In this document: piece by piece, positions 920 through 23,855 of the stretch
How positions within the stretch are numbered: position 1 is the stretch's first letter
Layout: every line of letters begins with the position of its first letter
From: Streptomyces venezuelae
GTDB lineage: Bacteria; Actinomycetota; Actinomycetes; Streptomycetales; Streptomycetaceae
Assembly: GCF_008642355.1 (NCBI RefSeq)
Contig: NZ_CP029193.1
Coordinates: 4,736,001-4,800,000 of the forward strand
Length of the DNA stretch: 64,000 nt
Direction: 5' to 3'
The notes under the pieces: generated by a model
The model's input: the letters and a program-made list of their open reading frames with translations, nothing else
The model's database searches: none
What the model was told of the DNA's origin: nothing
Made by a program: the position numbers and the translations under genes

Positions 920-961
920 CTCTCCCCCGAAGCCGTGATCGTGCGCCGCGGCTGTGCCGCG

Positions 962-6405: not shown

Positions 6406-7047
6406 ATGGCCCGCTACACAGCACCGCAGACCATCGCGCGCGGCGGCTTCAGCATCAAGGTGCCGGAGACGTGGTGGGAGTTCGACGTGCGCCCCGAGTC
6501 GCGCGACGCGGCGATCCGCCAGATGATCAACGACCGCGTCCGGGCCCGCCCGGAGCTCGCCCCGCACCGGGAGACGTTCGAGGCGTTCCTGCGCAAGGCG
6601 TCGAAGGACGCGTGGCAGTCCGGAGCGCTGTACTGCGGCTGCATGGCGGAGAGCTTCGGCGGCGATACGCCGGTGACGGGCTCGGTGACCGTCTCCCTGG
6701 TCGGTGCCCGCACGCCGGACGGCGACGTCCTCCCCACCGACCCGGACCGCATCGTCGCCCAGCTCGGCGTCCGTGAGGCCAGGCGGGAGGGGGACGCGTG
6801 GCGGAAGGTCGAGACGGTCGACATCCCGGGCGTCGGCCTCGCGGCCCGCACGTACGGCATCGAGGACGTCTCCGTCCCCGGCGACGAGCGCACCATCCGC
6901 GTCGTCCTCATGCAGACCTTCATCCCGGTCCCCGGCCAGGAGGGCAAGGTGGCCCTGGTCTCCGGCAGCAGCCAGCTCCTCGAACTCGCGGACTCGTTCT
7001 TCGACATCTTCGACGCGGTGACTTCTACGTTCCGCTTTGTGGAGTAG
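6406..7047 (+). CDS. Conserved hypothetical protein, soluble, 213 aa
   Basis: I recognise no enzyme family. The sequence begins MARYTAPQTIARGGFSIKVPETWWEF and contains a central segment (residues about 80-115) and a C-terminal segment (about 175-205) compatible with a small alpha/beta fold of the PsbP/Mog1-like kind, in which a 'FSIKVPETW' strand at the start is common. That is a weak resemblance, not an assignment. There is no signal peptide or membrane helix. ATG 6406 is preferred over GTG 6397 because GGAGAGG sits eight bases before the ATG and would be too close to the GTG. It may be co-transcribed with the DinB gene. The 3' end faces the protease gene, with a hairpin region between them. 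Confidence 0.75.
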   Translation: MARYTAPQTIARGGFSIKVPETWWEFDVRPESRDAAIRQMINDRVRARPELAPHRETFEAFLRKASKDAWQSGALYCGCMAESFGGDTPVTGSVTVSLVGARTPDGDVLPTDPDRIVAQLGVREARREGDAWRKVETVDIPGVGLAARTYGIEDVSVPGDERTIRVVLMQTFIPVPGQEGKVALVSGSSQLLELADSFFDIFDAVTSTFRFVE

Positions 7048-9444: not shown

Positions 9445-10161
9445 GTGAAGATCCAGGAGCGTACGGGGGCGGGCAACAACCGTTCCGCCGCGCCGGCTCA
9501 GCCGGCGGTCGGTGAGCGACTTCCCGCGCCGCCTCGCGAGCGCAAACCGGCGCTCGCCGCTCTGGCCGTCCTCCTCATCCTCGTCGGTGCCCTCGGCGCC
9601 ACCGTGCTCGTGCTGCGCGCGGGCGACCGGATCGAGGTCGTGAAGGTGACCAAGCCGATCGCCGCCGGTGAAGCCGTCGACGAGAAGACGAACATCACCG
9701 GCGTGATGGTCGCCGAGGACGACTCCATCAACTACGTGAAGTGGGAGCAGCGCGGCGTCCTCGCGAAGCTCAAGGCGAAGAGCGACATCCCCGCGGGTGC
9801 CGTCGCCGTCGGCGAGATGTTCGCCAAGAAGGCCGTGCTGCCCGCAGGCAAGGCCTCCGTCGGCCTCTCCCTGAAGGAGGGGCAGTACCCCTCCGACATC
9901 AAGAGCGGCGACACCGTCGCCGTCTACCCCGTGCTCTCCGGCACCTCCACCGGCAAGGGGTCCAGCGGCGGCAGCTCCGCGAGCGGCACCCCCCTGGTCG
10001 CCGACGCCAAGGTGAACACCATCGCCGCCAAGAGCGACGCCACCGTGAGCACCGGCAACCTCAACATCACCCTCGTCGTCCCGCAGGAGGAGGCCGCGGC
10101 TCTGGCGAGCGCGGCGTCCGAGGGCAAGGCCGTCGTCGCCCGCGTCTCCGACGCCGACTAG
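9445..10161 (+). CDS. SAF-domain pilus assembly protein, CpaB/RcpC-like
   Basis: A 238-residue protein with a cytoplasmic N-terminus rich in Pro/Arg (1-38), one membrane helix (about 39-58) and an extracytoplasmic SAF domain (about 63-135: VVKVTKPIAAGEAVDEKTNI ...). The C-terminal part contains a Ser/Gly-rich loop and the segment LNITLVVPQEEAAALASA, typical of CpaB/RcpC proteins associated with the Tad secretion machinery. GTG 9445 is supported by GGGGAG seven bases upstream. It is the first gene of the Tad operon; the next gene starts 17 bp after its stop. Confidence 0.88.
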   Translation: MKIQERTGAGNNRSAAPAQPAVGERLPAPPRERKPALAALAVLLILVGALGATVLVLRAGDRIEVVKVTKPIAAGEAVDEKTNITGVMVAEDDSINYVKWEQRGVLAKLKAKSDIPAGAVAVGEMFAKKAVLPAGKASVGLSLKEGQYPSDIKSGDTVAVYPVLSGTSTGKGSSGGSSASGTPLVADAKVNTIAAKSDATVSTGNLNITLVVPQEEAAALASAASEGKAVVARVSDAD

Positions 10162-10178
10162 AGTCGAGTACAAGAGAC

Positions 10179-11015
10179 ATGGCGCTCATCGCTCTCGCCG
10201 CCGACAAGGGTTCCCCCGGTGTCACCACAGCGGCCGTCGCACTCGCCGCCGTCTGGCCGCGCCGCGTGCTGGTCGCGGAGACCGACCCCGCCGGTGGCGA
10301 CCTGGTCTACCGCAGTGCCGCCGCGCACGGCGGCCCGCTCAACCCCAACACCGGCATGCTCTCCATCGCGGCCACCGCGCGCCGCGGCCTCGTGCCCGAC
10401 CAACTCTGGGACCACACACAGCCCTTGAGCGGCGGCCTCGAAGTCCTCGTCGGCCTCGGCATCGCCGAGCAGGCCGCAGGTCTCGCGGGGCTCTGGCCCA
10501 CCCTCGGCCGCGCCTTCTCGCAGCTCGCGGACTCCCCGAACGCGCCCGCCGACGTGATAGCGGACTGCGGCCGGATCAGCGGCGACGGCCCGGTCGTCGA
10601 ACTGTTCCCGCACGCGGCGCTCGTGCTGCTCGTCTCGCGCACCGAGCCCGAGGCCATCGCGCGCGTCCGCGACCGCGCAGCGGCCCTCGCCACGAAGCTG
10701 CACGGCGGCCCGAGGGGCGCCGCTTCCCTGGCGCAGCCGCTCATCGGCGTACTCCTGATCGCCGACCCCTCGACATCCGCGAAACTCGTCCACCAGGTCA
10801 ACGACATGCTGATGGCCGCGCAGACCGGTGCGCGTGTCGTGGGCACCCTCGCCGACGACCCCGCGGGCGCCGACCAACTGGCCGGGCGCCGCCGCGGACG
10901 GCTCGACAAGTCGCTGCTCATCCGCTCGGCGCGCAAGGTGACCGTCGACCTGTACCAGCAGTACGGCGCCGCCTGGACCAACCCCGTCGCGCAGCAGCCC
11001 GGGACGGGCCGATGA
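10179..11015 (+). CDS. CpaE/TadZ-like ParA-family protein
   Basis: A 278-residue MinD/ParA-type protein beginning MALIALAADKGSPGVTTAAVAL. In Tad systems such proteins (CpaE/TadZ) place the secretion machine at the cell pole. The P-loop is unusual: KGSPGVTT keeps the first Lys, but the second Lys of KGGxGKT is Val, so nucleotide hydrolysis may be weak or lost. Later ParA-type features are present: ETDPAGGD near the start (switch I region) and DVIADCGR (about residue 125). Its stop overlaps the start of the ATPase gene (ATGA), so production is coupled to CpaF. Confidence 0.87.
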   Translation: MALIALAADKGSPGVTTAAVALAAVWPRRVLVAETDPAGGDLVYRSAAAHGGPLNPNTGMLSIAATARRGLVPDQLWDHTQPLSGGLEVLVGLGIAEQAAGLAGLWPTLGRAFSQLADSPNAPADVIADCGRISGDGPVVELFPHAALVLLVSRTEPEAIARVRDRAAALATKLHGGPRGAASLAQPLIGVLLIADPSTSAKLVHQVNDMLMAAQTGARVVGTLADDPAGADQLAGRRRGRLDKSLLIRSARKVTVDLYQQYGAAWTNPVAQQPGTGR

Positions 11016-12322
11016 GCGCACCCGTCGATCACCAGCTCGTCAAGCGGTTCCGGCAGGACGCCGGTGACCGCATCGCCGAGCAGCGCCGCCTCGACCAGGT
11101 CTCCGGCGTCACCCCGATGTCGGGCGAGGACGAGCGGCACTACGCCCGCGCCGTCATCGCGCAGATCCTGGAGGAGTACGCGCGCGCGGAGATCAACGCC
11201 GGGCGCACCCCTCTCGACGCGGAGACCGAGGAGCAGTACGCGGCCGCCGTGCACGCCGCGCTCTTCGGCGTCGGCCGGCTCCAGCCGCTGCTCGACGACC
11301 CCGAGGTCGAGAACATCGACATCAACGGCTGCGACCAGGTGTTCGTCGGGTACGCCGACGGCCGCGAGGTCAAGGCCGACCCGGTCGCCGAGACCGACGA
11401 GGAGCTCGTCGAGCTGATCCAGGTGCTCGGCGCCTACTCCGGTCTGTCGTCGCGTCCCTTCGACTCCGCCAACCCGCAGCTCGACCTGCGGCTGCCCGAC
11501 GGTTCGCGTCTGTCGGCCGTCATGGACGTCACGCGCCGCCCCGCCCTGTCCATCCGCCGTGCGCGCATGGGCAAGGTCTTCATGTCAGACCTGGTGGGCA
11601 ACGGGACGCTGACGCCCGAGATCGGGCACTTCCTCGCCTGCGCCGTCCGCGCCCGCAAGAACATCATGATCGCGGGCGCGACCAACGCCGGAAAGACCAC
11701 GCTCCTGCGCGCCCTCGCCAACGAGATCCCGCCGCACGAGCGCCTCGTCACCGTCGAGCGCGCCCTCGAACTCGGCCTCGACCAGTTCGCCGACCTGCAC
11801 CCGAACGTCGTCGCGTTCGAGGAGCGGCTGCCCAACTCCGAGGGTCAGGGCGAGATCTCGATGGCGGAGCTCGTGCGCCGGTCCCTGCGCATGAACCCCT
11901 CCCGCGTCATCGTCGGTGAGGTCCTCGGCGACGAGATCGTGACCATGCTCAACGCGATGTCGCAGGGCAACGACGGCTCGCTCTCCACGATCCACGCCAA
12001 CAGCTCCAGCGAGGTCTTCAACCGTATTTCCACTTACGCGCTGCAGGCCTCCGAGCGGCTTCCCATCGAGGCGAGCCAGATGCTCGTCGCGGGCGCCGTC
12101 AACTTCGTCGTCTTCATCCAGCGGCGCAACAACTACCAGTCCGGCGGCAAGCTCCAGCGCATGGTGACCTCCGTCCGCGAGGTCAACGGCGTCGACGGCC
12201 GCGTCCTGTCCAGCGAGGTCTTCGCGGAGGCCCCCGACGGACGGGTCGTCGCCCACGCGCCGATCGCCTGCATGGACGAGCTGGCCGCGTTCGGCTACCG
12301 CCCCGCCGGGCAGTGGGGGTGA
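11012..12322 (+). CDS. cpaF: Tad pilus secretion ATPase CpaF/TadA
   Basis: A 436-residue type II/IV secretion hexameric ATPase. The N-terminal helical domain (about 1-90) precedes the CpaF core: VENIDINGCDQVFV (strand region), Walker A GATNAGKTTLL (about residues 226-236), the Asp box VTVERALELGLD, the Walker B region RVIVGEVLGDEIVTML and the His box SLSTIHANSS. It powers assembly of Flp pilins from the cytoplasmic side, working with the TadB and TadC platform proteins encoded next. ATG 11012 overlaps the preceding stop; tadB starts eight bases after its stop. Confidence 0.96.
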   Translation: MSAPVDHQLVKRFRQDAGDRIAEQRRLDQVSGVTPMSGEDERHYARAVIAQILEEYARAEINAGRTPLDAETEEQYAAAVHAALFGVGRLQPLLDDPEVENIDINGCDQVFVGYADGREVKADPVAETDEELVELIQVLGAYSGLSSRPFDSANPQLDLRLPDGSRLSAVMDVTRRPALSIRRARMGKVFMSDLVGNGTLTPEIGHFLACAVRARKNIMIAGATNAGKTTLLRALANEIPPHERLVTVERALELGLDQFADLHPNVVAFEERLPNSEGQGEISMAELVRRSLRMNPSRVIVGEVLGDEIVTMLNAMSQGNDGSLSTIHANSSSEVFNRISTYALQASERLPIEASQMLVAGAVNFVVFIQRRNNYQSGGKLQRMVTSVREVNGVDGRVLSSEVFAEAPDGRVVAHAPIACMDELAAFGYRPAGQWG

Positions 12323-12329
12323 GCACGAC

Positions 12330-13379
12330 ATGAACACACTCGCCGCTCAGGGCGGCCTCGGCTCCATGGGCGGGCTGTTCTCACTGCCCGTCCTGTACGC
12401 ACTCGGCTGCGGCGTCGCCGCCGGCGGCGGCCTCGCGCTGCTCGCCGTCGCGATCCGCGGCCTGCCGCCCAAGCCCGCGCACGAGAAGCACCGGGCCAGC
12501 GAGCGCGCGAGTGAACTGGTCCGCTTCGTGGGCCGGCGCGGCTCCGCCGCCATCGGCGTGGGCCTGGTCGTGCTGCTCCTCACCCGCTGGGCCGTCGCGG
12601 GCATCGCCTCCGGCATCCTCGTCTTCTTCTGGGACAAGCTGTTCGGCGGCGCGGCCGAGGAGCGCGCCCAGATGAAGCGCGTCGAGGCCCTCGCCGCCTG
12701 GACGGAGTCGCTGCGCGACACGATCGCGGGAGCGGTCGGCCTCGAACAGGCGATCCCCGCATCCGCTCGCGCCGCCGCCCCGGTGCTCCGCCCGCACCTG
12801 GACGCGCTCGTGGACCGCCTCCGCGCACGCACCCCGCTGCCCGAGGCCCTCCAGATACTGGCCGACGAGATCGACGACGCCTCGGCCGACATCATCGTCG
12901 CCGCCCTGATCCTCAACGCCAAGCTGCGCGGCCCCGGCCTGCGCCAGGTCCTCGGCGCGCTCGCCAAGTCGGCGCGCGAAGAGGTCGACATGCGCCAGCG
13001 CGTCATGGCGCAGCGCGCCTCGACCCGCCGCTCGGTGCAGATCGTCGTCGCCGTCTCCATCGCCTTCGTGCTCGGCCTGTCCATCTTCAACCGCGAGTTC
13101 GTCGAGCCGTACGGCACGCCCGTCGGCCAGCTCGTCCTCGCCATGGTCTGCGCGCTGTTCGCACTCGGCTTCTGGTGGCTTCGGAAGCTGTCCACGGTGG
13201 AGACCCCGGACCGCTTCCTCGTCAAGGACGAGCCGGGCGTCCAGTTCGTACGTCCCCGGGGTCCCGGCGGCGCACCCGTGCCCGGCGGCCCCGAGCAGGC
13301 CCCGCAGTTCGGCCGCCCCGGCGCCGCCCCGCAGACCCTGCCGGGGTACACCAACCCGTCCGAGGGGGTACGGCGATGA
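12330..13379 (+). CDS. tadB: Tad inner-membrane platform protein TadB
   Basis: A 349-residue type II secretion F-domain protein. Membrane helices are visible at about 18-38, 70-95, 233-250 and 262-280, with the cytoplasmic F domain between them (WTESLRDTIAGAVGLEQAI ... ADIIVAALILNAKLRG). The Pro/Gly-rich C-terminal tail (about 300-349) is longer than in many homologues. TadB and TadC form the platform on which the ATPase acts. Its stop overlaps the tadC start (ATGA). Confidence 0.93.
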   Translation: MNTLAAQGGLGSMGGLFSLPVLYALGCGVAAGGGLALLAVAIRGLPPKPAHEKHRASERASELVRFVGRRGSAAIGVGLVVLLLTRWAVAGIASGILVFFWDKLFGGAAEERAQMKRVEALAAWTESLRDTIAGAVGLEQAIPASARAAAPVLRPHLDALVDRLRARTPLPEALQILADEIDDASADIIVAALILNAKLRGPGLRQVLGALAKSAREEVDMRQRVMAQRASTRRSVQIVVAVSIAFVLGLSIFNREFVEPYGTPVGQLVLAMVCALFALGFWWLRKLSTVETPDRFLVKDEPGVQFVRPRGPGGAPVPGGPEQAPQFGRPGAAPQTLPGYTNPSEGVRR

Positions 13380-14305
13380 GCCTGACCATGCCCGTAGTGA
13401 TAGGCGCGGTCCTCGGCCTCGGCGTCTTCGCCCTCATCCGCGCCCTGATGCCGTCCAAGCGCAGCGCGATCGCCACTGTCGCGCGCATCGACGCGATGCG
13501 GGCGCGCGGCGCGGCGTACGAGTCGCACCGGGCCACGGGGGACACCGAGAGCCCCGGCCGGTTCGGCACGATGCGCGGCCGCGTGGGTCAGCGGGTCGCC
13601 GAGTTCTACCTCCAGCAGGGCTGGGAACAGCGCTCCCTCCGCGCCGACCTGGCGGTCCTCGACCGCAGCTGGGAGAAGTTCCTGGCGACAAAGGTGCTGC
13701 TCGCCGCGGCAGGCGTGTTCTTCGGCCCGTTCCTCTTCGCCGTGATCTACACGCTCGGCGTCGGCCGCAGCCCGATCATCCCGGTGTGGCTGGCGCTGAT
13801 GTTCGGCGCGCTCTTCTTCTTCCTGCCGGACCTGGAGGTACGCAGGGACGCGGCGGACAAGCGGCGCGACCTGCGCCGCGTCATCGGCGCCTATCTGGAC
13901 CTGGTGTCGATGAGCCTCGCGGGCGGCCGCGGTCTCCCCGAGGCGCTCATGGCGGCGGCGGAGGTCTCCGACGGATGGGCGACGCAACGTATCCGAAGCG
14001 CTCTGGCCGACGCCCGCATCACCGGCGTCAGCCAGTGGCAGGCCCTCGGCTCGCTCGGCGAGGAACTCGGCGTCGAGGAGCTGAAGGACCTGTCGGCGTC
14101 CCTGGCGCTGGTGGCGGACGACGGCGCGAAGGTGCGCGAGTCCCTCGCCTCCCGCGCGGAGACGATGCGACACCGCGAACTGGCCGAGATCGAGGGCAGT
14201 GCGGGCGAGAAATCCCAGTCGATGCTGGTCGCGCAGCTGCTTCTGTGCGCGGGCTTCCTGGTCTTCCTCATCTTCCCGGCGGCGATGCGCGTGTTCCAGG
14301 TCTGA
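13376..14305 (+). CDS. tadC: Tad inner-membrane platform protein TadC
   Basis: A 309-residue F-domain protein paired with TadB. Helices are seen at about 3-24, 107-127, 132-148 and 282-303. The F domain contains YLDLVSMSLAGGRGLPEALMAAA and SAGEKSQSMLVAQLL. ATG 13376 overlaps the tadB stop and is preferred to upstream codons in the same frame, which would lie inside tadB. The pilin gene follows after 85 bp. Confidence 0.93.
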   Translation: MSLTMPVVIGAVLGLGVFALIRALMPSKRSAIATVARIDAMRARGAAYESHRATGDTESPGRFGTMRGRVGQRVAEFYLQQGWEQRSLRADLAVLDRSWEKFLATKVLLAAAGVFFGPFLFAVIYTLGVGRSPIIPVWLALMFGALFFFLPDLEVRRDAADKRRDLRRVIGAYLDLVSMSLAGGRGLPEALMAAAEVSDGWATQRIRSALADARITGVSQWQALGSLGEELGVEELKDLSASLALVADDGAKVRESLASRAETMRHRELAEIEGSAGEKSQSMLVAQLLLCAGFLVFLIFPAAMRVFQV

Positions 14306-14390
14306 CGCGCGTGTGCCAGGACCAGGTGGCGCCGGCGACAACGGGGGTCGGCGCTTCTTCCCCCCACCAACTCTGAGAGGACTACTCATC

Positions 14391-14636
14391 ATGAACGGAC
14401 GGAACTTCAGTCACCCGGCTGTCGACTTCCTCGTGGCCTTCCTCAAGGGCCGTGTGGAGCGGGCCCGCTCCGGCGAGCTCGACCGCGGCGCGTCCGCGGT
14501 CGAGTGGGTCATCATCTCGGCGGTCGTCGTGGCGATCGTCGGCGTGGTCGCCGCGGTCATCAACGCGGCGCTGAAGGGCGGCGCGGACAAGGTCAGCGAC
14601 TGCATCGAGGGCGCGGACGCGGGCAGCACCTGCTGA
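14391..14636 (+). CDS. Flp-type pilin
   Basis: An 81-residue prepilin, probably the major subunit. A long positively charged leader (about 1-32) ends RG, followed by ASAVEWVIISAVVVAIVGVV; the Glu at +5 after the Gly is the hallmark of class III signal peptides cut by A24 prepilin peptidases. The hydrophobic helix is followed by a short polar C-terminus with two Cys (SDCIEG, STC), which could form a disulfide. GAGAGG lies ten bases before ATG 14391. The matching peptidase is encoded at 23130-23855. Confidence 0.9.
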   Translation: MNGRNFSHPAVDFLVAFLKGRVERARSGELDRGASAVEWVIISAVVVAIVGVVAAVINAALKGGADKVSDCIEGADAGSTC

Positions 14637-14686
14637 CCGTCGGACGGTTCACTGTTCGCGGCATCGTGAGAGGCGACGGGGTTCGA

Positions 14687-15157
14687 GTGCGGAGATCGCG
14701 GAGACCGCGGGGACTGCGGGGACTACGGGGATTCGTACGCCGCAGGGTGGAGGCAGCCTCCACCCGCGGCGAATCCGGCATGACCGCGATCGAGTTCGTG
14801 CTGCTCACCCCGGTGCTGTTCTTCATGATCTTCGCGACGGTGCAGTTCGCCCTGTACTTCTTCGCTGACCACGTCGCCCAGGCGGCGGCGCAGGCGGGCG
14901 CGCGCAAGGCCCGTGCCACGGCCGACGAGAACGCGGGCGGCTGGCGGGGCGAGGCGCGTGACGTGGCCGACGCGTACATCCGCCAGCTCGGGCCGAAGCT
15001 CGTGCTCGGCCCGGACGTGAAGACGATCCAGCCGGAGCAGAACACGGTCGGCGTGGAGATCACGGCACGGGTCCCCACGGTCTTCCCCGGCCTCGACCTG
15101 GACGTGCACGCGCGGTCGGCGGGTCCCGTCGAGCGGTTCGTGGAGGACAACGGCTGA
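14687..15157 (+). CDS. TadE-like minor pseudopilin
   Basis: A protein of about 156 residues with an Arg-rich leader (1-30), then GESGMTAIEFVLLTPVLFFMIFATVQF, the TadE signature (Gly, Glu at +5, long helix), and an extracytoplasmic domain rich in Ala and Gln (AAAQAGARKARA). TadE-family pseudopilins help start or stabilise Flp pili. GTG 14687 is used; GTG 14666 is also in frame and possible. The stop overlaps the next start (TGATG). Confidence 0.85.
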   Translation: MRRSRRPRGLRGLRGFVRRRVEAASTRGESGMTAIEFVLLTPVLFFMIFATVQFALYFFADHVAQAAAQAGARKARATADENAGGWRGEARDVADAYIRQLGPKLVLGPDVKTIQPEQNTVGVEITARVPTVFPGLDLDVHARSAGPVERFVEDNG

Positions 15158-15609
15158 TGCGGAACGTACGCCTTCGCCTGCGCGACGTTCGCCCGCGCGC
15201 CGTCCGGCTGCGCGACGACCGGGGCCTCTCCACGGTCGAAGTGGTGATCCTGGCCCCCGTGATGATCCTCCTCATCCTGGTCCTCGTGGCCTTCGGCCAG
15301 CTGGTCGACGGCCGCGGAGCCATCGACGGCGCCGCACGCGACGCGGCACGCGCGGGCTCGATCCAGAAGGAGCACGGCACGGCGCTGGCGGAAGCGCGAG
15401 CGGCGGCGCGGGCCGACCTGGCGGACGTCTGCTCGGGCCCGGTCTCGGTGGTCCAGAAGAGCCAGGGGTTCGACGAGAAGATCGACCCGTTCTTCACGGT
15501 GGAGGTCAGCTGCGAGGTCAGGGGACTCGCCATGCTGGGCCTGGACATCCCGACGACGCTGGAGGCCACCTTCAGCTCCCCGCTGGACCCGTACCGGAGG
15601 CAGGCGTGA
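15157..15609 (+). CDS. Second TadE-like pseudopilin
   Basis: A 150-residue protein, again with an Arg-rich leader (1-21) followed by DRGLSTVEVVILAPVMILLILVLVAF, the class III/TadE pattern, then DGRGAIDGAARDAARAGS, typical of the family. Two Cys (about 89 and 126) may pair outside the membrane. Start and stop overlap the neighbouring genes (TGATG upstream, GTGA downstream), so the three pseudopilins are made together. Confidence 0.87.
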   Translation: MRNVRLRLRDVRPRAVRLRDDRGLSTVEVVILAPVMILLILVLVAFGQLVDGRGAIDGAARDAARAGSIQKEHGTALAEARAAARADLADVCSGPVSVVQKSQGFDEKIDPFFTVEVSCEVRGLAMLGLDIPTTLEATFSSPLDPYRRQA

Positions 15610-16082
15610 CACGCCACACCGTCACCGTCGCCGCCGTACGCGACTGGATCGCGTCCCGCCGCGCGCGCCTCGACGACCGCGGCTCGGGCGCCGGCGCGGT
15701 CATCGTCTTCGCGATCGTCTTCCTCGCGCTCGCGGCGTTCGTCATCGACGGCGGCCTGTCCATCTCCAAGCGGGAACGCGCCGCGGACATCGCGGAACAG
15801 GCCGCGCGCTACGCGGCCCAGGACCTCGACCTGGAAGACATATACGAGGGCGTCAAGGGCGCCCCCATCAACTTCCAGAACTGCGACGCGCGGGTGGCGG
15901 CCTACGTGACGGAGGCGGGCCTCAAGGGCGCGGACGTGGCCAACACGCGCTGCGTGACGGCGAACGCGCAACAGGTCGAGGTCGAGGTCCAGATGACGTA
16001 CAGCCCGGTGTTCACGGGGATGTTCTACGGCGGGGACGTGACGGTGAAGGGACGGGCGGTGGCGGAGAACGAGGTGGGCTGA
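15606..16082 (+). CDS. TadG-like pilus protein (Tad N-terminal domain)
   Basis: A 158-residue protein with the TadG N-terminal signature: DDRGSGAGAVIVFAIVFLALAAFVIDGG (about residues 24-50), then ISKRERAADIAEQAARYAAQDLD. It is much shorter than proteobacterial TadG and lacks a von Willebrand A domain, as usual for Streptomyces versions. GTG 15606 overlaps the preceding stop. It is the last gene of the first Tad block and ends only 13 bp from the stop of the convergent WXG-like gene. Confidence 0.85.
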   Translation: MTRHTVTVAAVRDWIASRRARLDDRGSGAGAVIVFAIVFLALAAFVIDGGLSISKRERAADIAEQAARYAAQDLDLEDIYEGVKGAPINFQNCDARVAAYVTEAGLKGADVANTRCVTANAQQVEVEVQMTYSPVFTGMFYGGDVTVKGRAVAENEVG

Positions 16083-16095
16083 GGCCCCGCGCAGG

Positions 16096-16446
16096 CTACT
16101 TGCCGCCGTCCTTGCCCTTGCCGCCGCCCTTCCCCTCCTTCTCCTTGACCGCGTCGTTGATCTTCTTCGTCAGGTCGTCCTCGAGCTTCTTGAACTCGCG
16201 GACCACCGCGTCGGACAGATCGGCGAGCTGGTCGAGCTGCTGACCGATGTCCTCGCGCCCGTCCTCCCAGTTGGACTCGAAGTCGTCCAACGAGTCGTAG
16301 ACGCCGCCGTCACCGATGTCGTCCTTGTAGGACTCGAAGGTCTTCTTCGTACGGTTCATACGGGTCTTGATGGAGCGCAGCCTGCTGCCGTAGTCCTCAA
16401 GATCGGTGAGCGGAATCGAGAGGTCGCTCTTGCCTTTGGCGCCCAT
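16096..16446 (-). CDS. WXG100-like small helical protein
   Basis: A 116-residue helical protein beginning MGAKGKSDLSIPLTDLEDYG. A WXG-type turn (FESNWEDG, about residues 57-64) separates two helices, and the C-terminal tail is Lys/Gly-rich (KEKEGKGGGKGKDGGK). It resembles the product of 962-1258 in layout, tail and length. GGAGGGG precedes ATG 16446 at a suitable distance. It lies 17 bp after the Rhs gene on the same strand, where an immunity gene or a next toxin would normally be, and has no gene after it on this strand: the Tad operon ends 13 bp away on the other strand. Confidence 0.72.
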   Translation of the reverse strand: MGAKGKSDLSIPLTDLEDYGSRLRSIKTRMNRTKKTFESYKDDIGDGGVYDSLDDFESNWEDGREDIGQQLDQLADLSDAVVREFKKLEDDLTKKINDAVKEKEGKGGGKGKDGGK

Positions 16447-16463
16447 GATTGTTGTCCCCTCCC

Positions 16464-19400
16464 TCAGGTGCCCGAACAGCTTAGGTGTCGGCCGGTCTCC
16501 GGGTCGTAGTAACGGAAGCCGTCGCAGTGCAGGCCCGTTTCCGGGTCGAAGTACTGGCCGGGGGCACGCAGGGGGGTGTACGCCGTGCTGTTCGCCGGCC
16601 ATGCCGTCGTTCCCCAGTGCGTGCTGCGGGTCCGCCATGTGACGGTGCCCCGGTCGTCGACGAGTTCGGTGGGTGTGCCGGTCAGGTCGGTGACGAACGT
16701 GAAGGAGCGCGAGTCGACCGAGTGGATGCGCTCCGTCTGGGCGAGGGGCTGGCCGCCCTCGTGGTCCCAGGTCAGGCTCACCGGGCGCGGCAGGTTCCGG
16801 GCCGTCGTGGTCTGCTCGCAGAGCGTCGTGCCGTCCCAGGTGAAGTCGGTTCGCTCGTCCACCGTGTCCTTGTCGTCGCCGGGTGCCAGCCGCTGTTTCG
16901 TGATGCGGCGGCCCAGCGGGTCGTACGTGTAGAGCCAGCGCGTGCCGTCCGGGGTGACCACCGACGTGAGCCGGTCCTCCGCGTCCCACGTGTACCGCCA
17001 GCACTGCCCGGCCTTCCGTCGCAGGACGACGCGGCCGAGCGCGTCGTGTTCGTAGCGGGTGCTTCCCGCGCGCGTGAGGAGTGTTCCCGTGTACTCCCTC
17101 GGGCCCGTGGACTCGTGGCCGGGGTGGATGTCGGGCCAGGCCGCGTACGTCTGGTTGCCCGCGGCGTCGTAGGCGTAGGTCTCCGTCCAGTTGTGGGCGT
17201 ACACCGCCGTCACCCGGCCCGCCGGGTCGCGGTCGAAGTGGCGTCCGCCGGAGAGCTGGTCGCCGAGGGCGGTGACGGCCCCGTCGGCGCGGTAGGTGTA
17301 CGTGCGGTGCTGGACCGGGCTGCCGTCCGGTGCCGTCACCGTCTGGGCGGTGAGGCGGCCGACTTCGTCGTAGGCGCGTTCCAGGGTCACGCGAGCGTCG
17401 GTCCCGACCCGCCGCTTCACCTCCCTGCCCGCCGCGTCCCGCTCGAACTCCACCGTCCCGCCACCGGACGTGGTGAGTCGGGTGCGGCGGCCCGCCGCGT
17501 CGTACTCCCAGCTGCTGGTCGCCCCCGTCGGAGTCGTCCGTCCCGTACGACGGCCCGCCTCGTCGTACGCGTACGTGAGCGGCCCGCGCCCGTCGACCGT
17601 CTCGGCGAGCAGGCGACCCGAACCATCCCGCTCCAAAGTGAGTCCGCAGTCGGGGCGCACCGCTTCGACCAGGTTGCCGAGCAGGTCGTACACGAAAGTG
17701 GTGACCGCCTCGGCGCTCTCCTTGCGGACCAGCCGGCCCAACGCGTCGTGGGAGAAGGAGATCGACTCTCCGTCGGCGCTCGTCCGCCGCACCAGGCGGC
17801 CCGCCGCGTCGTACGCGTAGGACAGGGTCCGGCCGTCGAAGTCCGTCTCGGCGGTCACGCGGCCCGCGGCATCGTGCCGGTATGTCCAGGACATGCCCCG
17901 CGGGTTGTCCACGCGGGTGAGGCGCAGGGACGCGTCGTAGTCGAAGTGGTGGCGCGTTCCGTCGGCGCCGACACGTGCGGCGAGCAGGTCGAAGTGGGTG
18001 TACTCGAACGACGTGACCTGGCCCAGCTGGTCGGTGTGGGCGACGCAGTTGCCCTCTCCGTCGTACGTCCAGGACTCCACCGCGCCGTCAGGGGCCGTGC
18101 GCCGGACGAGCCGCCCCTCCGGCGACCACGCCAGGTGCGTGGTGTGACGGAGGGGGTCGGTGAGGGCCGTGGGGCGCCCCAGCGCGTCGCGCTGCCAGAC
18201 CGTGACGGCGCCCAGCGGGTCCGTGACCTTGAGCGGCAGGCCCGCGCCGTCGCACCGCACGGTGGTCGTGTGGCCGGCCTCGTCGGTCACCGAGAGCGGG
18301 TGCCCGGCGGGCGTGTAGGCGTGGTGGACGGTGACACCGGACGGCTCGGTGACCGACGTGCAGTTGCCGCGCTCGTCGTACGTGTACTGCCACTTCGTGC
18401 CGTCGGGCAGGTCGACGGCCGTCTTGAGGTTCAGGTCGTTGTAGGTGACGCGAAGGACGGCGCCGTCGGGCCGCGTCACCCGGGTCGGCAGGCCCAGTTC
18501 GTTGTTGACGTACGCCGTGGTGTGCCCGAGCTGGTCCGTCGTGGCGGCGACGTGGTGCAGCGCGTCGTACGTGGTCGTGACCGTGCCGCCGAGCGGGTCG
18601 GTCTCCGCGACGACCAGGCAGTGGTCGTCGACGGTGAAGCGGGAGGTGGCGCCCTCGGCCGTGGTCACCTCGGTGACGCGGCAGCCGGGCCGGGCGGGGT
18701 CGGGCACGTCGTACGTGAAGGTGTGGGCCATGTGCCCGGTCATGCCCCGCCGGGCGACACAGCGGTCCCGGTCGTCGTAGGCGTACGTGGAGCGGCTGTT
18801 GTTCGTGTCCTCCCACGCGGTGAGGCGCAGCCGTTCGTCGTACGTGAACCGCGTCGGCAGGCCGGAGGAGTCGGTGACGGCGGTGAGGTTGCCGTCGGTG
18901 TAGCCATACCGCTTGACGACGAGATCGTCGCCGCTGCCGTCCGCGGCCGCGCCCGCCACGCTGAGCAGGGTGACGCGCCGGTCCTCGACGGTCAGCATCA
19001 CGTAGTAGCCGCCGCTGTGGAGGATCGCGCGCGGGGTGCCCTCCGTGTCGTAGTCGAAGTCGACGGTGTTGCGGTTGCGGTCCGAGACCATGGTCAGCAG
19101 GGCCACGCCGTCGTCCTCGCGGGGCGCGGTGAAACGGCGGGCGATGCCGGTGACCGGGTCGGTGATGCGGTAGCCGCCGTCGGCGAGGCGTTTCAGGGGC
19201 CACCGGGGGCCGGACTCGGGCAGGACGAGTTCCGCGGGCGTTGCCGTGGATCCCGCCGGGTGCGGATACGTGAGGAGCATGCCGTCCTCCGTCACGAACA
19301 CGACCCCGTCCCCGTCGACTTCGAGACGCTGGTCGATCGTGGAGGTCCACATCGGCCCGAACCAGCCGCCGGACCGGTAGCCCGAGGCGACCCGCCGGGT

Positions 19401-19661
19401 GAAGTCCAGTGGCAGCGTGCCGGGCAGCGAGAGGTCCGTCTCCTCCAGGAACACCTGGCCGGTGGCGACGTCGACCGGGCCGCCGCATCCCTTGATCCTG
19501 CTCCTGACGCGGTCGTACGCGCCCTTCCGCCCCTCCTTGACCGCGGTACGGGCCGACTTGGATCCCCTGAGCCCGTCCTTCAACCCCTGAACCCCTTTCC
19601 GGGAGTGGCCGCGTCCCGTCCGGGCCGACCTGGTCCTTCGCGTGTCCTGCGCGCCTTGCAT
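16464..19661 (-). CDS. Rhs-family YD-repeat protein without a toxin tip
   Basis: A protein of about 1,065 residues from ATG 19661. After a basic leader comes the DUF6531-type start (GGPVDVATGQVFLEETDLSLPG), then many YD repeats (such as YDAAGRLVRRTSADGE, YDALGRLVR), which fold into the Rhs shell. The core ends RYYDPETGRHLSCSGT and stop. In other Rhs proteins this point reads ...YLSPDPLGL... and is followed by a variable toxin. Here the toxin and the conserved junction are missing. There is no signal peptide or membrane helix. The start is uncertain because no good ribosome site precedes 19661; a GTG six codons upstream is an alternative. The gene interrupts the Tad locus in opposite orientation. 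Confidence 0.9.
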   Translation of the reverse strand: MQGAQDTRRTRSARTGRGHSRKGVQGLKDGLRGSKSARTAVKEGRKGAYDRVRSRIKGCGGPVDVATGQVFLEETDLSLPGTLPLDFTRRVASGYRSGGWFGPMWTSTIDQRLEVDGDGVVFVTEDGMLLTYPHPAGSTATPAELVLPESGPRWPLKRLADGGYRITDPVTGIARRFTAPREDDGVALLTMVSDRNRNTVDFDYDTEGTPRAILHSGGYYVMLTVEDRRVTLLSVAGAAADGSGDDLVVKRYGYTDGNLTAVTDSSGLPTRFTYDERLRLTAWEDTNNSRSTYAYDDRDRCVARRGMTGHMAHTFTYDVPDPARPGCRVTEVTTAEGATSRFTVDDHCLVVAETDPLGGTVTTTYDALHHVAATTDQLGHTTAYVNNELGLPTRVTRPDGAVLRVTYNDLNLKTAVDLPDGTKWQYTYDERGNCTSVTEPSGVTVHHAYTPAGHPLSVTDEAGHTTTVRCDGAGLPLKVTDPLGAVTVWQRDALGRPTALTDPLRHTTHLAWSPEGRLVRRTAPDGAVESWTYDGEGNCVAHTDQLGQVTSFEYTHFDLLAARVGADGTRHHFDYDASLRLTRVDNPRGMSWTYRHDAAGRVTAETDFDGRTLSYAYDAAGRLVRRTSADGESISFSHDALGRLVRKESAEAVTTFVYDLLGNLVEAVRPDCGLTLERDGSGRLLAETVDGRGPLTYAYDEAGRRTGRTTPTGATSSWEYDAAGRRTRLTTSGGGTVEFERDAAGREVKRRVGTDARVTLERAYDEVGRLTAQTVTAPDGSPVQHRTYTYRADGAVTALGDQLSGGRHFDRDPAGRVTAVYAHNWTETYAYDAAGNQTYAAWPDIHPGHESTGPREYTGTLLTRAGSTRYEHDALGRVVLRRKAGQCWRYTWDAEDRLTSVVTPDGTRWLYTYDPLGRRITKQRLAPGDDKDTVDERTDFTWDGTTLCEQTTTARNLPRPVSLTWDHEGGQPLAQTERIHSVDSRSFTFVTDLTGTPTELVDDRGTVTWRTRSTHWGTTAWPANSTAYTPLRAPGQYFDPETGLHCDGFRYYDPETGRHLSCSGT

Positions 19662-20049
19662 GCCCAGTATCGGCACTTCATTTGAAGGATCCACGGTGGT
19701 GCGGGGCGACGGAAGTGAATGGTGCGCGGGCGCGACGCTCCCGTGCCGGGACTGTGACAGGGGAATCCGTGTGTGGCCGGGGAGCCGAAGCCCCGGGATC
19801 CGTACCGGAACTGTGACGGGAACCCCCGATCCGTACAACCGCGAGCTCAGCGCGGTCCGCGGGCGGCGCACCCGGCCCACGAAGGAAACGGGCCTATCGG
19901 GTGCGGCGGGAGGAAGCGGGCCGCGGGGCCGGTGGCCGGGGCCGTACGGGCCTGTCTGACGTCCGACCCCTTCCGTAACATCACCTCAGTAGGCTCACCC
20001 GCCCCCTCTGACCATCCACTCCTCCCCACAGGACACCAGGACACCTGCC
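19662..20049. other. Divergent intergenic region between Rhs gene and LysM-BTAD gene
   Basis: About 390 bp with no supported gene; the open frames have shadow composition. It should carry the promoters of both flanking genes. TAGGCT at 19990-19995 is a possible -10 for the plus-strand gene, but no matching -35 is seen. No inverted repeat of note. Confidence 0.5.
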
Positions 20050-23000
20050 ATGGCGCGCACCACCTCACGCTCGACGAGCCCGCCGAACCCGCAGTCCCCG
20101 CGGAACCGGACGCCGCAGCCGTTGCCGCGGCGCCGGCGCACGGTCGGGGACTTCGTCAAGGCCTTCCTCGCGTTCGTAGCGCTCGCCGTGCTCCTCGTCG
20201 GCGTACCGGGAGCCCTCGTCGTCTTCGTCGGGTGGCCGCTGCCGGGCGGCACGCCCTCACTGAGCTGGCTGCAGCAGGAGATCACCGTCAGTACGTTCAT
20301 CAACGTACTGACCGTCGTCGTCTGGTTCGCCTGGGCGCAGTTCACCGCCTGCGTGCTCGTCGAGATAAAGGCCGCCCTCTCCGGCGTCGGCATCCCGGGC
20401 CGGGTGCCGGGTGCCGGCGGCAGCCAGATGCTGGCGCGGCAACTCGTCGCCGCCGTGCTGCTCGTGGGTGCCACCGCGGCCAGTTTCGCGCCGGGCCTCT
20501 CGCAGTTCGGGCAGTCCCTGGAGGGCAACCAGAAGCATGCGTCCGCCGCGAGCGCCCAGCAGACCCCCGGTCTCTTCGGGCAGGAACAGCAGGCCGCGGC
20601 GTCCGCCGCCGACGCGCTGGCCGCGCAGGCCGACCAGGCCGCCGCGCACGCCGGTGGCGGCAACGCCGCCAGGGACGGGGACACGAAGTACTACCGGATC
20701 CAGCCCCCCGAGGGACGCCACCACGACTCGCTGTGGGAGGTCGCGGAGCGGCACCTCGGCGACGGCCGCCGGTACAAGGAGATCTACCAGCTCAACAAGG
20801 ACCGTGAGCAGCCCGACGGTTCGAAGCTCAGCGAAGCGAGCCTCATCCGGCCCGGCTGGATCATGGAGATGCCCGCGGACGCGCACGGCGGCGAGCTCGT
20901 CGAGATGCCCGACGAGGCGCCCAAGGTCTCCGAGGACGTCAAGGAGCAGATCTCCGACTACTCCAAGACGGGCGACCAGCGGCAGGGCGGCGGCGCCCAA
21001 GAGGGCGGCGGCCAGGAGCAGGGCGGTCGGCAGCAGGGCGGCGGCAGCTCCGTCGACCACGACACCGCCCACATCGTCCTGCCCGAGCAGCGCCCCGCCG
21101 CGCCGGAGAAGCCCGCCATGCCGCAGGCCCCGGCCACCCCCGAGGCGGAGACCCCGCGGGCGCCCGCCGCCACCGCGAACAGCGGCTCCGAGGGCTTCGA
21201 CTTCGGACTGCCCGAAGCGCTCCTCGGCGCCCCCCTCCTCGCCGCCGGCCTGCTCGGCGCCCTCGGCCGCCGTCGCCGCCACGCCCTGTGGCAGTCGGCC
21301 ATGGGTGCCGTCGGCGGACGCGGAGGCATGCAGCCGCCGACGCCGACCGGCGCCGCGGCCGACGTGCAGGACGCGCTGCTCGTCGGCGCCGACCCCGAGG
21401 GCGTACGCCTCCTCGACCGGTCGCTGCGCGGCCTCGCCGCCTCGCTCACCGAGGAGAACCGTCCCCTGCCGACCGTGTACGCGGCCTGGCTGACCAACGG
21501 TGACCTGCACCTGCAACTCGCCACACCCGCCGGACGCCCGCCCGCGCCCTGGCAGCTCGGCCAGGACCAGACGTTCTGGGTGCTGTCGCGCGCCGACGCC
21601 GAACGGTACGAGGACGTGGACACCGCCGCGCCCTACCCCGGCCTCGTCTGCCTGGGCACCCTGGACGACTCGCGGCTCCTCCTCAACCTGGAGGCCGTGC
21701 CCGGCATCGTGTCGCTGAGCGGCAGCGCCGCCGACCGTGCCGCCGTCTTCGCGTCGGTCGCCGCCGAACTCGCCACCAACGGCTGGTCGGACCGCATGAC
21801 GATCACCGTCGTCGGCTTCGGCCAGGACCTCACCCCGCTCGCGCCCAACCGCCTCCGCCACCTGGAGGACGTCGAGGCCCTCATCGAGACGATGGAGGCC
21901 GAGACGCGGCAGCGGCGCGGCGCCCTCGGCGCCGCCGGGCACGACTCCGTGCTCACCGGCCGCACCGGCCCCGCCCAGCACACCCGCTGGGCCCCGCACC
22001 TGGTGCTGCTCGCCGCCGAGCCGACCGCCGATGACGCCGTCAAGCTCGCCGAACTCGCCGCGGACGCGAGCCGTCTGGGCATCGGCTACCTCGTCGGCGC
22101 GGAGACGGGTGACCTGCCCGGCGCCGCCTGGGAGATGGAGATCACCCGCGACGGCAAACTCCTCGCACCGCTGCTCGGGCTCGAACTGGCCGCGCAGTCG
22201 CTGCCCGAGGCCCAGCAGCGCGCCGTCGTCCAGCTGTTCACGGACGCCGACCCGGAGGGCTCCGGCAACCCCACGGGCCCGGACGACGGCCCCACGGGCG
22301 CCGCGCCGCCGTTCCTCGTCGACGTCACGGAGCAGGGCCGCCCCGCGGTCTACGCCCGCCTCGTCGGCACGTACGAGATCATCGGCCTCGAAACCCCGGA
22401 CGGCGAGCGCAGCCCGCTGCTCCACGAGGCGCTGGCCCTGCTGCTCCTGCACCGCGAGGGAGTCCACCCCCGGGTGCTCGCCTCCGCGCTGTGGCCGCGC
22501 GGTGTCACCGACGACGTGCGGGACGCGCTCCTCGACCGGCTGCGCGACTGGCTCGGCAACGAACCCGACGGCTCGCCCCGGCTGCGCACCGACGACACCG
22601 GCAGGCTCACGCTCGCCAAGTCGGTGGTCTCCGACCTGGACGTGCTGCGGTCGCTCTACCACGAGGCGACGCAGGGCCGCGGGGCCGGCAACCGCGCGGT
22701 GCGCGGCCGGATGCTCACGGACGCCCTGGTTCTCGTGCGCGGCCCGCTGCTCGCCGACCGCCCGCGGGGGCGGTACGGCTGGCTCACGCACGAGATCATC
22801 GACGCACAGCTCCCGCTGCTCGTCGCCGACATCGGACTCGCGCTCTCCGAGTTCCACCTGGAGAAGGGCCGCGCGGAGAAGGCGATCGAGGCGCTCGACG
22901 CGGCGCTGGGCTCGGCGCCCGGCGACGAGCGGCTCTGGAACGAGCTGCTGCGCGCCACACACGCCACGGAGGACCCGGCCCGCCTCCAGCAGGTCGCCGC

Positions 23001-23106
23001 GGACCTCATGGCCCGCAGCGGGGCGCGCGGCCTCCCGCCGCGCACGGAGGCGCTCCTGGACGAGCTCCTGCCGACGTGGCGCAGCGGCGTGTCGGCGGCG
23101 GGCTGA
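20050..23106 (+). CDS. LysM and BTAD domain membrane protein of the Tad locus
   Basis: A 1,018-residue protein. Three membrane helices (about 36-60, 79-102, 136-155) are followed by a LysM-like domain (about 215-277: SLWEVAERHLGDGRRYKEIYQLN), a Gln/Gly-rich linker (about 310-380), a further helix (about 395-410), and a long C-terminal part with a winged-helix-like segment (about 800-865: HPRVLASALWPRGV) and a BTAD-type tetratricopeptide region (about 870-1010). BTAD is the activator domain of SARP regulators such as AfsR. The combination is known from Tad loci of Streptomyces; its role is not established. A regulator that links envelope state to pilus production is inference. The prepilin peptidase gene follows after 23 bp. 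Confidence 0.88.
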   Translation: MARTTSRSTSPPNPQSPRNRTPQPLPRRRRTVGDFVKAFLAFVALAVLLVGVPGALVVFVGWPLPGGTPSLSWLQQEITVSTFINVLTVVVWFAWAQFTACVLVEIKAALSGVGIPGRVPGAGGSQMLARQLVAAVLLVGATAASFAPGLSQFGQSLEGNQKHASAASAQQTPGLFGQEQQAAASAADALAAQADQAAAHAGGGNAARDGDTKYYRIQPPEGRHHDSLWEVAERHLGDGRRYKEIYQLNKDREQPDGSKLSEASLIRPGWIMEMPADAHGGELVEMPDEAPKVSEDVKEQISDYSKTGDQRQGGGAQEGGGQEQGGRQQGGGSSVDHDTAHIVLPEQRPAAPEKPAMPQAPATPEAETPRAPAATANSGSEGFDFGLPEALLGAPLLAAGLLGALGRRRRHALWQSAMGAVGGRGGMQPPTPTGAAADVQDALLVGADPEGVRLLDRSLRGLAASLTEENRPLPTVYAAWLTNGDLHLQLATPAGRPPAPWQLGQDQTFWVLSRADAERYEDVDTAAPYPGLVCLGTLDDSRLLLNLEAVPGIVSLSGSAADRAAVFASVAAELATNGWSDRMTITVVGFGQDLTPLAPNRLRHLEDVEALIETMEAETRQRRGALGAAGHDSVLTGRTGPAQHTRWAPHLVLLAAEPTADDAVKLAELAADASRLGIGYLVGAETGDLPGAAWEMEITRDGKLLAPLLGLELAAQSLPEAQQRAVVQLFTDADPEGSGNPTGPDDGPTGAAPPFLVDVTEQGRPAVYARLVGTYEIIGLETPDGERSPLLHEALALLLLHREGVHPRVLASALWPRGVTDDVRDALLDRLRDWLGNEPDGSPRLRTDDTGRLTLAKSVVSDLDVLRSLYHEATQGRGAGNRAVRGRMLTDALVLVRGPLLADRPRGRYGWLTHEIIDAQLPLLVADIGLALSEFHLEKGRAEKAIEALDAALGSAPGDERLWNELLRATHATEDPARLQQVAADLMARSGARGLPPRTEALLDELLPTWRSGVSAAG

Positions 23107-23129: not shown

Positions 23130-23855
23130 TTGCTGTTGACACTCATCCTGGGGGGCGCCCTGTGGGGCGCCTTCGCGGGCCTCTTCGTGCCGAGGGCCGC
23201 GTACCGCCTGTCGGTGCCGCCGGGCGAGCCGTGGCGCGCGGAGTGCCCGGAGGGGCACGCGCTCGGTTCGTGGCTGGGCCTCGCCCGGTGCGGGAGGGAG
23301 GGGGGAGCGGGATACGGCCCCCGGACCTCCGCCACGGCCGTCACCACGGCCCTGGTCTGCGCCGCGCTGGCCGCGACCACGGGCACACGCCCCGAGCTGG
23401 CGGTCTGGCTCCTGCTCGCCCCCGCAGGCGTGCTCCTCGCCCTGGTCGACTTCACCGTGCACCGCCTGCCGGACGTCCTGACGCTCCCGCTCGCGGCCGC
23501 GTCGCTCGCGCTGCTGGCAGCGGTGACGCTCGTACCGGAGCAGGCGGGCTCATGGATGGCGTCCCTCTACGGAGCCCTCGCGTTGGCAGGCGCGTACTTC
23601 GTCCTCTTCCTCATCAACCCCAACGGCATGGGGTTCGGCGACGTGAAGCTGGCGCTCGGTCTGGGCGCCGTGCTCGGCTGGTACGGCTGGGGCGTCCTCC
23701 TCGTCGGCACGTTCGCGGGCTTCCTGCTGGCCTCGCTGTACGGCGCGGCCCTGGTCGTCGCCCGCCGCGCGAGCCGCAAGACGGCGATCCCGTTCGGCCC
23801 GTTCCTGATCGGCGGCGCCTTCGTGGGGCTGCTGCTGGGGGGCTGCACCGCCTGA
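23130..23855 (+). CDS. Prepilin peptidase (A24 family)
   Basis: A 241-residue integral membrane aspartic protease. The two catalytic Asp motifs are visible: ALVDFTVHRLPD (about residues 107-118) and GMGFGDVKLALGLG (about 166-179, the GxGD motif). There are about seven membrane helices. A loop with CPEGH near the start recalls part of the Cys-rich cytoplasmic loop of bifunctional enzymes, but the full set is absent. It should process the Flp pilin and the TadE-like proteins. The start is TTG 23130, with GAGGGAAG upstream. Confidence 0.92.
   Translation: MLLTLILGGALWGAFAGLFVPRAAYRLSVPPGEPWRAECPEGHALGSWLGLARCGREGGAGYGPRTSATAVTTALVCAALAATTGTRPELAVWLLLAPAGVLLALVDFTVHRLPDVLTLPLAAASLALLAAVTLVPEQAGSWMASLYGALALAGAYFVLFLINPNGMGFGDVKLALGLGAVLGWYGWGVLLVGTFAGFLLASLYGAALVVARRASRKTAIPFGPFLIGGAFVGLLLGGCTA

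Follow-up and report, generated by a model that had tools for sequence, protein, structure and literature searches.

A WXG-like gene and a probable Rhs toxin remnant in the Tad locus of Streptomyces venezuelae suggest a type VII secretion island around the pilus genes

The Tad pilus locus of Streptomyces venezuelae is interrupted by a short minus-strand segment that encodes an Rhs protein and a small WXG-like protein. This segment lies in the 64-kb stretch of DNA analysed here (the window), positions C1:4736001-4800000 of a genome of 8.02 Mb assembled as a single contig (G000 in a sample of 295 Streptomyces genomes). The gap that it fills, between a TadG-like gene and a LysM/BTAD-type gene (BTAD), is a hotspot for toxin cassettes and likely belongs to a type VII secretion system (T7SS) island around the Tad locus. 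The WXG-like gene would be its resident T7SS partner, beside which an Rhs toxin was inserted and subsequently disabled.

The gap between TadG and BTAD

A sequence-only reading of the window had taken the Rhs and WXG-like genes for one acquired toxin-delivery module that could be displayed or released together with the pilus. Its description of the locus is borne out by the gene calls, with Tad genes at 9445-16082, the plus strand resuming at 20050, and the two minus-strand open reading frames (ORFs) inside this plus-strand block, the WXG-like ORF (from 16096) being spaced 13 bp from the end of the TadG-like ORF (16082). The distance of ~8.5 kb between the pilin-like ORF (14391-14636) and the prepilin peptidase ORF (23130) was likewise confirmed. 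The insert contributes ~3.7 kb of this separation, the TadG-BTAD gap being 3967 bp in the window versus 272 bp in genome G247, and in insert-free relatives the 3-kb BTAD gene still separates the pilin and peptidase genes.

Comparison across the genus supports a real insertion site. In 62 fetched loci with both TadG and BTAD in the stretch, the two genes are only 51-457 bp apart in 13, while most others hold variable cargo. Outside this sample are 13 loci with one end missing (BTAD in nine, TadG in four), and L071, L072 and L108 are in no row. A second collection of 80 loci, picked by the presence of the WXG-like gene, enters only one frequency, the Rhs count among 100 loci given below. When genes were called across every fetched locus of the two collections (duplicates kept, up to 12 kb past the WXG-like gene where BTAD was not reached), 951 cargo proteins resulted, which form 161 clusters. 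Among the 20 representatives scanned, 12 have no Pfam match; the others include a toxin-like protein with T7SS_signal, an Rhs (1520 aa) carrying a YwqJ deaminase domain, and proteins of the Barstar, XRE/DUF5753, HATPase, SsgA and sigma-factor types. In S. huasconensis, the sole called gene between the WXG-like gene and BTAD is of the Barstar family and looks like an orphan immunity gene. Rhs genes of the full-length cluster are absent from 79 of 100 distinct loci with TadG and the WXG-like gene, lie on the plus strand in 20 and on the minus strand in one; many of these loci were picked by the WXG-like gene and some called stretches end early.

Further cargo families recur. A pair termed c2/c3 (a secreted-looking protein of ~350 aa and a lipoprotein-like one of ~200 aa, no Pfam match) is found at hotspot edges in both orientations and often duplicated, in L197 and many of L031-L188. 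Family c1 is very common beside the WXG-like gene and T7SS toxins, and proteins resembling it by eye, with no Pfam match, are encoded at 6406-7047 (+) of the window and at L197:10668-11264.

The WXG-like gene and protein

Orthologues of the WXG-like gene (E<1e-20, a cut chosen after viewing the match list) are present in 58 of the 295 genomes. Of the 62 loci, 38 have the gene in the TadG-BTAD gap (counting a frameshifted copy in L059 and one reduced to a fragment of 27 residues in L061), 3 have it at another place in the stretch and 21 lack it there; of the latter, L042, L089 and L095 come from genomes carrying it elsewhere. In the 38 loci, it is 44-6047 bp from TadG and 215-14,700 bp from BTAD. 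The gene stands without any called neighbour in L032, L052, L082 and L086, and also in L110, where the TadG side is not covered. In S. sp. WAC 01529, S. sp. G44 and S. silaceus it is present 215-453 bp before BTAD with no Rhs there, so that the WXG-like gene and Rhs have separate histories and the notion of a single acquired cassette fails. G247, which groups with the window lineage on the Tad tree, retains a scar of the WXG 3' end in its 272-bp gap. By this comparison, the WXG-like gene appears to be an older resident of the gap than Rhs. An Rhs/WXG pair at this place in most Streptomyces species would have pointed to an ancestral order, and this is not what is found; among the fetched loci, a minus-strand Rhs beside the WXG-like gene occurs only in S. 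atriruber (on two contigs whose adjacency is inferred) and S. indiaensis.

The WXG-like gene can move, because it is found by eye beside genes resembling the S10 ribosomal operon in several loci, e.g. L043, L104 and L124. In L043, L104, L124, L099, L128 and L157, WXG/c1(/Rhs) genes adjoin such S10-operon-like ribosomal protein genes. In G101 and G275 the WXG-like gene lies ~130 kb from TadE.

Members of the WXG100 family are helical hairpins of about 100 aa and are defined by a W-x-G motif in the turn. The motif of the WXG-like protein is W-x-x-G in 33 of 33 aligned orthologue rows. Its fold model is a helical hairpin with helices 13-43 and 47-106 (mean pLDDT 69), and the top five Foldseek matches in the PDB are WXG100/Esx proteins with a probability of 0.66-0.99. 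The modelled hairpin fits a WXG100-like partner and is no proof of it. The earlier label 'WXG100-like' holds for this resemblance in the fold model and not for the motif or for family models; membership of the WXG100 family was rejected on the family scans. Pairwise ratios of nonsynonymous to synonymous substitutions (dN/dS) of the gene among seven species are 0.10-0.37.

The Rhs remnant

The window Rhs retains DUF6531 (7.1e-23) and 15 RHS-repeat stretches (RHS_repeat, 1.2e-94), which identifies it as an RHS/YD core by Pfam. Neither a T7SS_signal nor a WXG100-like N-terminal export domain is found by the Pfam scan, and no C-terminal toxin domain after the core by the Pfam and NCBIfam scans. 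The Rhs_assc_core model (TIGR03696, NCBIfam) covers positions 3-76 in two intact Rhs proteins (L136, L156); in the window Rhs it covers 3-47 of 76, and the frame stops four residues further. No toxin follows because the associated core is cut at this point.

The Rhs gene of S. atriruber (G081) is 82% identical in DNA sequence across 2989 bp (blastn) and adjoins BTAD on the same strand as in the window. It retains a T7SS_signal domain (E 6.7e-11) and has 356 residues ahead of the motif that opens DUF6531, versus 58 in the window. The window stretch 19662-20049 can also be aligned (82%, blastn) with the sequence upstream of the S. atriruber Rhs. The toxin end of the latter is not seen because the contig ends inside the gene. 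Another S. atriruber contig, which probably adjoins this one, terminates upstream of the WXG-like gene in a small ORF with no Pfam match; this might, at a guess, be an immunity gene. The next-best Rhs match in any other genome is at most 65% identical (two candidates scored per genome). Judged from these candidates and the fetched loci rather than from a full count, the alignments place a close copy of the window Rhs only in S. atriruber among the relatives examined.

S. indiaensis (L156, also as L090) appears, by its domains, to hold the intact equivalent of the window arrangement. At the same place and on the same strand, an Rhs gene of 1462 aa is followed by a CdiI_3 immunity gene (2.8e-15) and then by the WXG-like gene. 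This Rhs carries WXG100_2 (2.9e-7) and Ntox28 (2.2e-53), with T7SS_signal slightly below cut-off. Because intact Rhs relatives have T7SS_signal or WXG100-like N-termini, a type VII export route is indicated; display or release with the pilus has no support, and no finding links the Rhs or the WXG-like protein to the pilus fibre. The window copy, lacking both export domain and toxin, does not qualify as a toxin-delivery module, and is most likely a disabled T7SS effector, a remnant cut at both ends that would be harmless or silent. Upstream of Rhs, at 19700-19840, a motif resembling 'GGAACTGTGACGGG' recurs (by eye); it occurs in relatives too and may serve as promoter or operator.

An EssC-like ATPase across the Tad operon

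The genome encodes a canonical EccC ATPase at 6.09 Mb and a second, EssC-like ATPase of 1587 aa at 4720813-4725576. The latter and the WXG gap flank the Tad operon on opposite sides; the ATPase gene is 26 kb away from TadE and ~20 kb from the first Tad gene, with other genes in between. FtsK_SpoIIIE matches in two stretches place it among the EccC/EssC-type ATPases; it scores 558 bits with the EssC model TIGR03928 (cut-off 778, not reached), 409 with EccCa and 328 with EccCb. An FHA fold near its N-terminus gave 48 Foldseek matches at E<=0.001, the best being FHA domains (top E 8.8e-7), and residues 1-90 may, as a guess, have a ubiquitin-like fold. Neighbouring genes encode a WXG100_ESAT6 protein (L197:7877-8191; TIGR03930, 46.6 bits, over the cut-off of 44.85), a Ser/Thr kinase and a protein with a WXG100_2 match slightly below cut-off. 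The best EssC-like match (E<=0.001, any strength counted) is within 38 kb of TadE in 29 of 32 Tad genomes, picked mostly for few contigs, with G012, G088 and G010 as exceptions. Thirteen genomes without a TadE orthologue at the cut have a weak match in 7 cases and none in 6.

G247 carries a different EssC-like ATPase beside Tad (45% identical over 1358 aa; TIGR03928, 568 bits), next to a WXG100-type gene at 37 bits, under the cut-off. T7SS modules may be exchanged at this place (L221, G247:4536001-4556000). Furthermore, a kinase-like piece is found near this other ATPase as well.

T7SS-signal genes cluster at the Tad locus. In 24 Tad genomes, PF21725 (E<=1e-4) has 104 matches; 32 of them fall no more than 20 kb from TadE and 45 no more than 50 kb, where uniform placement predicts 0.5 and 1.2; the associated Poisson p is formal, as cassettes may duplicate in tandem and the genomes are related. 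A match within 50 kb of TadE is found in 19 of the 24 genomes, namely in 18/18 with a strong Tad-side ATPase match and 0/5 without one, besides G012, where the ATPase is 1.27 Mb from Tad and one match is near TadE. The left end of the window itself holds a WXG-like gene (962-1258; WXG100 match E 0.002, below cut-off) and, after it, a T7SS-signal gene (PF21725, E 1.1e-9) of which ~449 aa, from the start at 919 to the window edge, are covered. This intact-looking pair forms a second cassette of the proposed island, across Tad from the WXG gap. A stop-broken state of its toxin was considered and rejected, since the TAG in question terminates the WXG-like gene, which shares the frame.

The WXG-like gene and the EssC-like ATPase also co-occur. 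The ATPase (N-terminal 300 aa, E<=1e-20) is found in 69 of the 295 genomes, which divide into 55 with both genes, 3 with the WXG-like gene only, 14 with the ATPase only and 223 with neither; it is thus present in 55/58 WXG carriers versus 14/237 genomes without WXG. The WXG-only genomes are G050 (82% complete), G101 and G211 (WXG frameshifted). Among 75 TadE carriers the numbers are 51 (both), 2 (WXG only), 10 (ATPase only) and 12 (neither), with p 1.6e-6. The WXG-like gene seems to follow the ATPase rather than Tad, since the ATPase is present in four (G086, G120, G121, G186) of the five WXG carriers that lack a TadE orthologue, G050 being the exception. In a quickly built Tad tree (72 rows, with G211 counted as WXG-present, pairs on supported branches), nine independent pairs differ in the ATPase, and on average WXG changes the same way in 5.8 and the opposite way in 0.2.

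Proposed explanation and alternatives

The joint reading that we consider likely is as follows. The TadG-BTAD gap would be one wing of a type VII secretion island surrounding the Tad locus. The WXG-like product would serve as a small helical targeting or co-secretion partner for T7SS-signal toxins, with the EssC-like ATPase from the far side of the Tad operon as their exporter; gene neighbourhood and co-occurrence make a T7SS partner that co-targets effectors its most likely role and suggest the EssC-like system as the export route. A T7SS-signal/Rhs toxin would have been inserted upstream of the resident WXG gene, Rhs toxins inserted beside this gene being putative clients of its product. Subsequent loss of the N-terminal export domain, of the toxin end and of any accompanying immunity gene would have brought the remaining Rhs core right up to WXG. 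The order of events, with the losses after insertion, and the former presence of an immunity gene beside the Rhs are probable.

Several observations weigh against this reading. The WXG-like protein matches no WXG model (Pfam, E up to 0.001; NCBIfam, E up to 1), its motif, besides having the W-x-x-G form, lies inside helix 2 of the model (W60), and the Foldseek E-values of the WXG100/Esx matches, 0.39-0.78, are not significant even at the best, 0.39. No stop interrupts the 1065 codons of the Rhs frame, and in a branch test polarised with five outgroup Rhs genes the window branch has 51 amino-acid changes versus 35 on the other, with 41 versus 27 synonymous changes (p = 1). Long-standing decay of the Rhs does not show, and its pairwise dN/dS of 0.37 is not branch-specific. 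Because branch-specific relaxation is absent, either the truncation happened recently or constraint on the core persists; a strong pseudogene claim was weakened by this test. Furthermore, 14 genomes have the ATPase and no WXG at the cut used, and the pair test on the Tad tree is small (sign test median p 0.031, range 0.016-0.22), WXG not changing with the ATPase in 3.1 of the 9 pairs.

The open frame without stops and the lack of an excess of amino-acid changes favour a truncated Rhs core that still works, either as a shell or scaffold protein or as a silent template exchanging toxin ends by recombination. A template role has been suggested for truncated LrhA genes of Listeria (PMC10327511), and two more open frames with a T7SS signal, as long as Rhs genes (1534 and 1544 aa), are present in G000. 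Nevertheless, a working core is unlikely, as the alignment with S. atriruber places the original start and the export domain in the lost part, the first remaining ATG is at the junction with no clear ribosome site (by eye only), and there is no toxin. In addition, dN/dS between the window and S. atriruber is 0.37 for the Rhs core (966 codons), 0.16 for BTAD and 0.11 for TadC, and the Rhs value exceeds the 0.16-0.27 of the 14 closest intact Rhs pairs in the chosen identity range, several of which are rows of the same genomes.

Slightly less probable still is a merely permissive gap, with the co-occurrence of WXG and ATPase following from shared ancestry and neighbourhood instead of function. 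The gap does accept unrelated cargo (SsgA and sigma-factor domains, kinase- and transporter-like genes by eye), and co-occurrence counts on related genomes are not independent. However, WXG and ATPase change together on the Tad tree, and both genes are present on different contigs (distance undefined) in G037, G120, G156 and G086 and at a distance of over 200 kb in G121 and G186; G247, with its replaced ATPase module, has only the WXG scar. Finally, joint acquisition of Rhs and WXG as one surface toxin cassette, maybe acting with the pilus, is very improbable, for despite their spacing of 17 bp on the same strand and the intact Rhs-immunity-WXG run of S. indiaensis, it is largely refuted by the close relatives G44 and WAC 01529, which have no Rhs there. 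The 79 of 100 loci without such an Rhs in the called stretch and the T7SS-type, not pilus-type, export domains of intact homologues also speak against it.

Gene content of the window

The features are listed in Table 1. In the Tad block, Pfam matches T2SSE, T2SSF (twice), TadE and Tad, with RcpC only below cut-off. The pilin-region ORF 14199-14636 gave no match in the Pfam scan, and the best family match of the BTAD gene is LysM at 0.004, not significant. The labels pilin, BTAD and prepilin peptidase thus derive from the earlier reading, sequence and position, with no significant family match behind them.

Table 1. Features of the window around the TadG-BTAD gap
Feature	Position	Strand	Basis
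Second cassette (WXG-like gene, then T7SS-signal gene)	1-1258	-	PF21725
CpaB/RcpC-like	9445-10161	+	Gene call; Pfam RcpC below cut-off
ORF of Tad/Flp pilus locus	10266-11015	+	Gene call; position and sequence only
TadA	11012-12322	+	Pfam T2SSE
T2SSF protein, first	12330-13379	+	Pfam T2SSF
T2SSF protein, second	13376-14305	+	Pfam T2SSF
Pilin-like ORF	14391-14636	+	Position and sequence only
ORF of Tad/Flp pilus locus	14780-15157	+	Position and sequence only
TadE	15157-15609	+	Pfam TadE
TadG-like ORF	15606-16082	+	Pfam Tad
WXG-like small protein, 116 aa	16096-16446	-	Orthologues; hairpin model
Probable Rhs remnant, 1065 aa from ATG at 19661	16464-19661	-	Domain scans; S. atriruber alignment
Stretch between Rhs remnant and BTAD gene	19662-20049	no strand	blastn
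LysM/BTAD-type gene, far border of hotspot	20050-23106	+	ORF call; after Tad genes in relatives
Prepilin peptidase ORF	23130-23855	+	Earlier reading and sequence; usually after BTAD in relatives

Relation to known systems

The T7SSg and T7SSh systems of Bacillota are described as always encoded beside Tad genes, the meaning of which was left open in a study whose main text does not contain the word Streptomyces (PMC11217815). The Streptomyces island resembles them in having an EssC/EccC-type ATPase and a WXG100 gene beside a Tad locus. Their ATPases, as that text describes them, belong to Bacillota and lack FHA, whereas the Streptomyces ATPase has an FHA fold; assignment to T7SSg/T7SSh was rejected on this ground. 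The T7SSd system of Actinomycetota, as outlined in the same paper, shares an FHA-bearing EssC-like ATPase, a WXG100 protein and a nearby Ser/Thr kinase gene. The kinase is not specific to a T7SSd-type locus, because a similar piece lies near the other ATPase of G247, and neither a TsdI-like giant protein nor TsdH could be recognised by eye in the gene calls for the 36 kb to the left of the window (L196/L197), where no profile search was made. Assignment to T7SSd is not decided.

The Listeria EssC8 locus (LrhA, LxpABC; PMC10327511) likewise combines a T7SS-associated Rhs protein with DUF6531, small partners and an immunity gene, and truncated LrhA copies without the N-terminal targeting domain are reported there. 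Listeria belongs to another phylum, and its truncated copies are described without partner genes, whereas the WXG-like gene stays in the window. The Kil/Tad system of Myxococcus (PMC8460266, PMC12075869) also links a Tad-type pilus to contact killing, a link that is hypothetical here; the abstract of the latter article names a type III secretion system-like complex, not a T7SS. An ESX system of Streptomyces is described in PMC8401907, and titles and abstract beginnings of open-licence PMC articles did not reveal a Tad-adjacent EssC-like T7SS in Streptomyces.

By analogy with the neighbourhood of T7SSg/T7SSh in Bacillota, the Tad pilus and the T7SS may be linked in function in Streptomyces, although they also occur apart (Tad without this ATPase in 14/75, ATPase without Tad in 8/69). 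It is a speculative and rather doubtful extension that both form one contact-dependent weapon, in which pili hold a neighbour while the T7SS exports T7SS-signal toxins. Equally doubtful, as part of the same idea, is a swappable Tad-side T7SS module (as in G247) with the Tad locus as if it were a fixed dock.

By itself, the window Rhs is a modest example of a disarmed toxin cassette. A similar T7SS-Tad pairing now turns up outside Bacillota, in a genus for which hundreds of genomes exist. It is accompanied by a hotspot for T7SS toxin cassettes and by the coupled gain or loss of a small partner-like gene across the pilus operon. The pairing in Streptomyces therefore makes the question of whether the T7SS-Tad neighbourhood has a meaning testable by gene deletion in culturable strains.

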